DNA of 64,000 nt. It comes from Limisphaerales bacterium (GTDB lineage Bacteria; Verrucomicrobiota; Verrucomicrobiia; Limisphaerales; UBA1100). Position numbers and translations under genes: made by a program. The stretch lies in assembly GCA_014382585.1 (NCBI GenBank), contig JACNJL010000038.1:83726-147725 (forward strand). Reading direction: 5' to 3'. The notes under the pieces were generated by a model. That model did not search any database, was not told where the DNA came from, and was given only the letters and a program-made list of their open reading frames with translations. Position 1 is the stretch's first letter. Every line of letters begins with the position of its first letter. Shown piece by piece: positions 39,261-46,717 of the stretch.

Positions 39261-39656
39261 TCAACGCACCATCCCCGCTTCGCGCAGGGCGTTGAGAATC
39301 ATTTCTTTGGGGGGGACGCCGCCGGCGCCCGGGTAGCGACGTCAGCCGAGGCCGTAGTCTTCGAAGCCACGCGCTTCGGGATCGATGTCCAGCCCATGAA
39401 TCTGAATGGAAGGGCTGCCCAGATAACGATGCCGCACCGCCTCTTCTTCGGTGGTGACATCCTGAATACGAATCGATAGCGAAATCTTGTGCTCCGCCAA
39501 AACCTCCCGCAAGCGTACGACCGCACGCGCGCCGTTGGATCAGCTGCCGGATTTGAGCACCACGATGGCGTCCGTTCCCACCGGCCCCTGCTCCGTGGTA
39601 CACGCACCCAACCCAAGGGCCAAGGTGCAGACAGCGATGTACTTGAAAGCGTTCAT
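39261..39656 (-). CDS. Candidate selenoprotein: thioredoxin-like lipoprotein with two in-frame UGA codons
   Basis: 131 codons from ATG 39656 to TGA 39261, if TGA at 39540-39542 (codon 39) and 39342-39344 (codon 105) are read as selenocysteine. The N-terminus is a lipoprotein signal ending LGLGAC (Cys19). Reading on gives VVLKSGS-U-SNGARAVVRL, then VTTEEEAVRHRYLGSPSIQI, FEDYGLG-U-RRYPGAG and GVPPKEMILNALREAG. This is the pattern of small thioredoxin-like proteins that contain GSPxIxxxGxD, YGLxCRxY and GVPP. As I recall that family, its conserved cysteines fall where both UGAs lie. No frameshift is needed. Predicted periplasmic redox protein; the partner is unknown. A pseudogene is the alternative, but two independent Cys-to-TGA changes at both redox positions in an otherwise clean frame is unlikely. 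Confidence 0.75.
39316..39342 (-). promoter_or_regulatory. Candidate SECIS hairpin at second UGA
   Basis: The segment from the A of UGA 39342-39344 pairs as ACGUCG/CGGCGU (one G-U), with a four-base bulge and an inner stem CCGG/CCGG closing a GCG loop. The loop begins 14 bases after the UGA, slightly closer than the usual model, so this element is weaker evidence than the first. Confidence 0.4.
39513..39528 (-). promoter_or_regulatory. Candidate bacterial SECIS hairpin after first UGA
   Basis: Starting 12 bases after UGA 39540-39542, the minus strand forms GCGUGC-GGUC-GUACGC, six pairs (one G-U) with apical loop GGUC beginning at base 18. A further three pairs can form below a single mismatch. 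A G at the first loop positions and a spacing of 16 or more bases fit the general bacterial SECIS model; the E. coli fdhF element also has GGUC in its loop. Confidence 0.6.
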
Positions 39657-39683: not shown

Positions 39684-39753
39684 GGACTCGCAGGCTCGTC
39701 CCTCCATTGCGAGTGCCGCTAGAGTAGCATTGGTGGGACGAGCCTGCGAGTCC
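39684..39753. repeat. 19-bp inverted repeat (family B, copy 1)
   Basis: Perfect arms GGACTCGCAGGCTCGTCCC (39684-39702) and its reverse complement (39735-39753), 32 bases apart. Lies in the 109-base gap between the 39766 hydrolase and the selenoprotein candidate. The same arm recurs at 45581-45688 and 46699-46717. Confidence 0.88.
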
Positions 39754-45580: not shown

Positions 45581-45688
45581 GGACTCGCAAGCTCGTCCCA
45601 CCACAAAAACCACCGGCCCCCGCAATGGAGGGACGAGCCTGCGAGTCCGTGGCTGTCCCTGGCGCAAGCGGACTCGCAGGCTCGTCCC
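45581..45688. repeat. Triple inverted-repeat cluster (family B, copies 2-4)
   Basis: Three 19-base arms of the GGACTCGCAGGCTCGTCCC type at 45581-45599 (plus, one mismatch), 45630-45648 (minus) and 45670-45688 (plus). Lies between the 45251 gene and the FGE-like gene. Confidence 0.85.
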
Positions 45689-46698: not shown

Positions 46699-46717
46699 GG
46701 GACGAGCCTGCGAGTCC
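46699..46717. repeat. Family B repeat arm (copy 5)
   Basis: Single arm GGGACGAGCCTGCGAGTCC, nine bases before the end of the DapA-like gene and upstream of the FGE-like gene. Together with 45581-45688 it brackets that gene. Confidence 0.85.

Follow-up and report, generated by a model that had tools for sequence, protein, structure and literature searches.

The closest described system is the DF family of selenoproteins. In its account of new selenoproteins, the deep-Sep study named a "hypothetical protein DF" from a single species, Desulfosediminicola flagellatus, for which Cys-containing homologues were described as numerous and TGA-containing homologues elsewhere as none (PMC12013277). Table 1 of a 2026 review lists DF as NF049942 with one Sec residue; this number is the count in that table and is not demanded by the NF049942 model (PMC13188914). 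According to the bSECIS model given in the same review, the hairpin that directs Sec insertion in bacteria has G at the first two loop positions, a loop of 3–9 nt and a stem of 4–16 bp, and lies 16–37 nt after the UGA (PMC13188914). Cys-containing DF proteins also occur in actinobacteria, where they are encoded on plasmids and chromosomes as "thioredoxin family" or hypothetical proteins.

The gene analysed here lies on the minus strand of a window of 64,000 nucleotides from a Limisphaerales bacterium and occupies positions 39261–39656. It starts with ATG at 39656, ends with a TGA stop at 39263–39261 and comprises 131 codons plus the stop if two in-frame TGA codons are decoded, namely codon 39 (39540–39542, minus strand) and codon 105 (39342–39344, minus strand). 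No TAA or TAG occurs in this frame between 39656 and 39261. Re-reading the sequence confirmed the preliminary description, which had proposed a single minus-strand frame through both codons and had pointed out the segments GSPSIQI, FEDYGLG-U-RRY and GVPPKEMI as well as a lipobox, LGAC; all four are present as given. Since the standard code splits the frame into three pieces, ordinary annotation conceals genes of this kind.

Across both TGAs, the read-through protein matched the NCBIfam model NF049942, "DF family (seleno)protein", with 92.4 bits (cutoff 70), the match extending over residues 31–123 and the full profile (1–96). In searches with the read-through protein, no Pfam family, the thioredoxin families included, scored above cutoff, and no match was obtained in a sequence search of the PDB; a search of viral contigs yielded no relative of the gene. 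The window gene and DF as described in the cited accounts have in common the domain family, the exchange of Sec and Cys and a SECIS-like structure 3' of the UGA. They differ in that DF is given there as having one Sec in one species, while the form found here would have two Sec residues and a lipoprotein signal and occurs in four genomes of Verrucomicrobiota (PMC12013277, PMC13188914). The single Sec listed for DF is thus exceeded in the window gene and in three relatives, all of which have two TGAs (PMC13188914). The suggestion that the protein might be a new type holds in part: the family had already been named, as the NF049942 match indicates, and it is the double-Sec lipoprotein form that appears to be a new variant relative to these two accounts (PMC12013277, PMC13188914).

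A five-row profile, run against public genomes, returned 25 loci, consisting of 24 Cys forms and one further double-TGA gene, L031. Both TGA columns were occupied by Cys in all 24 Cys-form DF proteins aligned; codon 39 corresponds to the N-terminal active-site Cys position of the thioredoxin fold and codon 105 to the Cys of GLxCRxY. L031 belongs to an uncultured Verrucomicrobiae assembly labelled FRAM_RAS of the same genus as the window genome; it is located at a syntenic site, is 83% identical to the window protein and retains both TGAs. Whole-genome searches identified two more double-TGA members, L062, from a different family within the order (39% identity to the window protein over the domain), and L066, from another family of the same class and a one-contig assembly. 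Identity of these two to the window protein is about 33–39%, and all four double-TGA proteins matched the NF049942 profile. The expectation that the two UGAs would align with Cys of homologues was therefore borne out, the aligned residue being Cys in 24/24 Cys forms or an aligned TGA in the three relatives. Among the relatives found, no mixed member with one TGA and one Cys occurred: both positions are TGA in four genomes, most of which are apparently draft or metagenome assemblies, and both are Cys in all others. In a phylogenetic tree, the double-TGA proteins formed two well supported pairs, window/L031 and L062/L066, a topology compatible with one shared origin as well as with two independent origins, so that the double-TGA form has possibly arisen twice. 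A second, distant DF-like protein is encoded elsewhere in the window's genome (L010, 1501–1734; G000:C40). It scored 31.9 bits, below the cutoff, and grouped with a sequence from genome G279 in the tree. Its residue at the first aligned position is Cys, and a CC pair lies close to the second.

Comparison of the window gene with L031 over codons 19–131 revealed 7, 9, and 25 differences at first, second, and third codon positions, respectively, with a dN of about 0.085 and a dS of about 0.30, indicating purifying selection. The third-position bias was observed before UGA39 and between the two UGAs and was weaker after UGA105, a stretch in which the divergence between the two genes is higher, with nonsynonymous changes in 9 codons and synonymous changes in 5. 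L031 carries one extra base in the signal-peptide region upstream of the domain; the frame is restored by an overlapping ATG. As selA of the same assembly (L083) contains a similar, double frameshift, visible as an out-of-frame stretch of about 15 residues that includes a stop, the pattern expected of two indels that compensate each other, both are likely assembly errors.

The N-terminus carries a predicted lipoprotein signal peptide, MNAFKYIAVCTLALGLGA, and the putative lipid-anchor residue Cys19 of the lipobox LGAC (39600–39656, minus strand). By a simple lipobox rule, a hydrophobic stretch followed by a lipobox (LGAC, LVAC, LTSC or AFGC) was present in all four double-TGA proteins compared to none of the 24 Cys forms, which extends the lipobox of the preliminary description to every double-TGA member. 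The product might nevertheless be a cytosolic selenoprotein that is initiated at an internal start, GTG codon 26, and resembles the Cys homologues, many of which have about 8 residues ahead of their first Cys. The conservation of GTG codon 26 in L031, an internal ATG in L062 (MKKIITILQSKDU) and the indel in the signal region of L031 would fit such a start. However, the strict association of lipobox and hydrophobic stretch with the double-TGA proteins, the clear signal peptides of L062 and L066 and, although the data are few, the location of 4 of the 7 differences between window and L031 within the first 11 codons at third positions argue for a translated signal peptide, and we regard a cytosolic product as unlikely. 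A literature search for lipoprotein selenoproteins returned none, a result that does not imply their absence. The [NiFeSe] hydrogenase of Desulfovibrio is a lipid-anchored selenoprotein, and an envelope location would therefore not be unprecedented.

The genome was also searched for Sec machinery, on which the selenoprotein interpretation depends, and all four components were present: selB, selA, selD and the gene for tRNA-Sec (selC) are clustered on contig C36, and the encoded SelB has the beta-barrel and the C-terminal winged-helix domains. selB was found in the L031 and L062 genomes as well. selA was present in 4/4 double-TGA genomes compared to 0/6 of the Cys-form genomes tested, of which four belong to one genus, so that by shared descent the contrast amounts to fewer than ten independent points. 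In three congeners (G559, G562, G563), selA was present and no DF gene was found; the Sec system is presumably maintained there by other selenoproteins. The Sec cluster of the window genome (L056, G000:C36:48000-67000) is located among sulfatase genes and genes for a glucuronate isomerase (UxaC) and an IlvD/Edd dehydratase; among the genes inspected around selC–selB, no clear selenoprotein was recognised.

Each TGA of the window gene is followed by a sequence that can form a hairpin according to the bSECIS model, and at the first site this hairpin is conserved with covariation (PMC13188914). Predicted hairpin 1 (39513–39528, minus strand) has 6 bp and a GGUC loop (39522–39519), the loop lying 17 nt after UGA39. 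The stem length, the loop and the spacing of exactly 17 nt are identical in 4/4 double-TGA genes; in the ungapped alignment, 24/24 cells pair, two pairs display two-sided (compensatory) changes, and shifted pairings score far worse. The SECIS of Escherichia coli fdhF, which like hairpin 1 falls within the bSECIS model (PMC13188914), also has GGUC in its apical loop, positioned 18 nt after its UGA as compared to 17 nt here; its stem sequence differs, and the DF gene has a second hairpin for a second UGA. This predicted hairpin 2 (39314–39330, minus strand) has 7 bp and a GGC loop at 39323–39321, 18 nt after UGA105. The second-site hairpins of the four genes have GGC or GGG in the loop and lie 18–20 nt 3' of the UGA; pairing holds in 26/28 cells, with two-sided changes in two of the pairs. 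In the window itself SECIS 2 is weak, since the minimum-energy fold at this site is a different, competing hairpin and resampling yields a hairpin in about half of the cases. When codons were resampled for the same protein, the chance of obtaining a hairpin ranged from 1% to 58% per site, being highest at the second site of window and L031. The SECIS argument consequently rests on conservation and covariation instead of on the folding of single sequences, for which z-scores at the hairpins were unremarkable. By a strict hairpin definition, only 53 of the 1951 TGA triplets in the window are followed by such a hairpin, and Rfam returned nothing at gathering score within 34–45 kb of the window.

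These data also bear on whether the gene is a decaying pseudogene in which both TGAs are nonsense mutations of a former Cys gene. A single substitution converts TGC or TGT to TGA, and the lack of other stops in the frame would be in accordance with a young pseudogene. In contrast, both TGAs are common to four genomes, two of which encode proteins as distant from the window protein as about 33–39% identity, the frame is under purifying selection between congeners, the hairpins are conserved with compensatory changes, and double-TGA forms occur only where selA exists. The comparative data contradict decay, which we consider very improbable and have rejected, in agreement with the initial argument that two nonsense mutations would hardly strike just the two redox positions. 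A reading of UGA as Trp, Cys or Gly by readthrough or a lineage-specific code change, although the frame stays open whichever residue TGA encodes, was rejected as scarcely credible because a normal TGA ends the domain in the window gene and its relatives, the Sec system of the genome is complete, fdhF-like hairpins follow the UGA, the homologues have Cys and not Trp or Gly at both sites, and double-TGA forms occur only together with selA.

The gene is best explained as encoding a DF-family protein with two Sec residues, a reading that we hold with high confidence on comparative grounds. The Cys residues of the homologues, the sel genes, the conservation of both TGAs and the purifying selection strongly support the initial designation as a probable selenoprotein, and TGA39 and TGA105 very probably encode Sec where relatives have conserved Cys; from these observations we infer the insertion of Sec itself. 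According to this double-Sec reading, both conserved Cys residues of a small lipoprotein with a thioredoxin fold would have been replaced by Sec, and SelB and Sec-tRNA would read the two UGAs, aided by the hairpin just 3' of each. After export, the protein would probably receive a lipid at Cys19 that anchors it in the cell envelope, and the two selenols might work there as a pair, either by cycling between selenol and diselenide as a redox couple or by providing the two ligands of a trap for thiophilic metals or metalloids, for example Hg(II) or As(III).

An AlphaFold2 model based on a 26-row alignment (pLDDT 88.8, pTM 0.82) displayed a thioredoxin-like fold for residues 31–122 (39291–39566, minus strand); a model from the single sequence was poor (pLDDT 39.7) and was set aside. 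The best structural matches among solved proteins were thioredoxins and KaiB, which has a thioredoxin fold, at moderate Z scores of 8–9. In the model, codon 39 directly follows strand 1, the usual place of the active site in thioredoxins, and codon 105 falls beyond the GSP loop, in the C-terminal portion. The protein thus has in common with thioredoxin the fold, the placement of the N-terminal active-site residue behind strand 1, and the GSP loop. Unlike thioredoxin, it does not match the Pfam thioredoxin families above cutoff and has no classical CxxC motif: the first site reads U-S-N-G in the window protein, with no second Cys or Sec within the motif, and the second conserved Cys/Sec is located near the C-terminus.

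A hydrolase gene lies upstream of the window gene, and a cold-shock gene is oriented convergently to it; none of the adjacent genes was recognised as a metal or redox gene, and no neighbours common to the window/L031, L062 and L066 loci were found. Just upstream, at 39684–39753, there is a long palindrome (z −8.8) whose arms contain the 19-mer GGACTCGCAGGCTCGTCCC. Six copies of this 19-mer are present in the window, spread over this site and two others (45581–45688 and 46699–46717), suggesting a dispersed palindromic repeat, and a close copy of the palindrome is found at the same site in L031. The actinobacterial Cys forms have the same domain with Cys at both TGA sites and no lipoprotein signal, and the plasmid-encoded ones, unlike the window gene, lie beside mercury, arsenic or cation genes: one adjoins genes for MerR and an alkylmercury lyase, another a heavy-metal regulator, and others adjoin arsenic genes or genes for a winged-helix regulator, a cation transporter and CcdA. 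Because the plasmid homologues are accompanied by genes for MerR/ArsR regulators, an alkylmercury lyase and a cation transporter and by arsenic genes, a role in the chemistry of thiophilic metals or metalloids, for example Hg(II) and As(III), can be proposed, but extrapolated from such distant homologues it is doubtful. That the two selenols act as a pair, as suggested by their joint replacement without any mixed case, has in our estimation about an even chance. An envelope-anchored selenol pair could serve redox or thiophilic-metal chemistry. We tentatively picture a lineage-specific, envelope-anchored selenoprotein with a thioredoxin fold, in which the selenols would be linked to each other as a diselenide within the molecule or would bind Hg or As together outside the cytoplasm and in which the paired Cys residues would have been exchanged together, possibly twice independently.

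DF, a selenoprotein so far reported from one species in the accounts cited, would thereby gain independent comparative support in a second phylum (PMC12013277, PMC13188914). With both conserved Cys residues predicted to be Sec, the two positions of the family would probably constitute a pair, and an envelope-anchored double selenol would represent a testable candidate for extracytoplasmic chemistry involving redox reactions or heavy metals.
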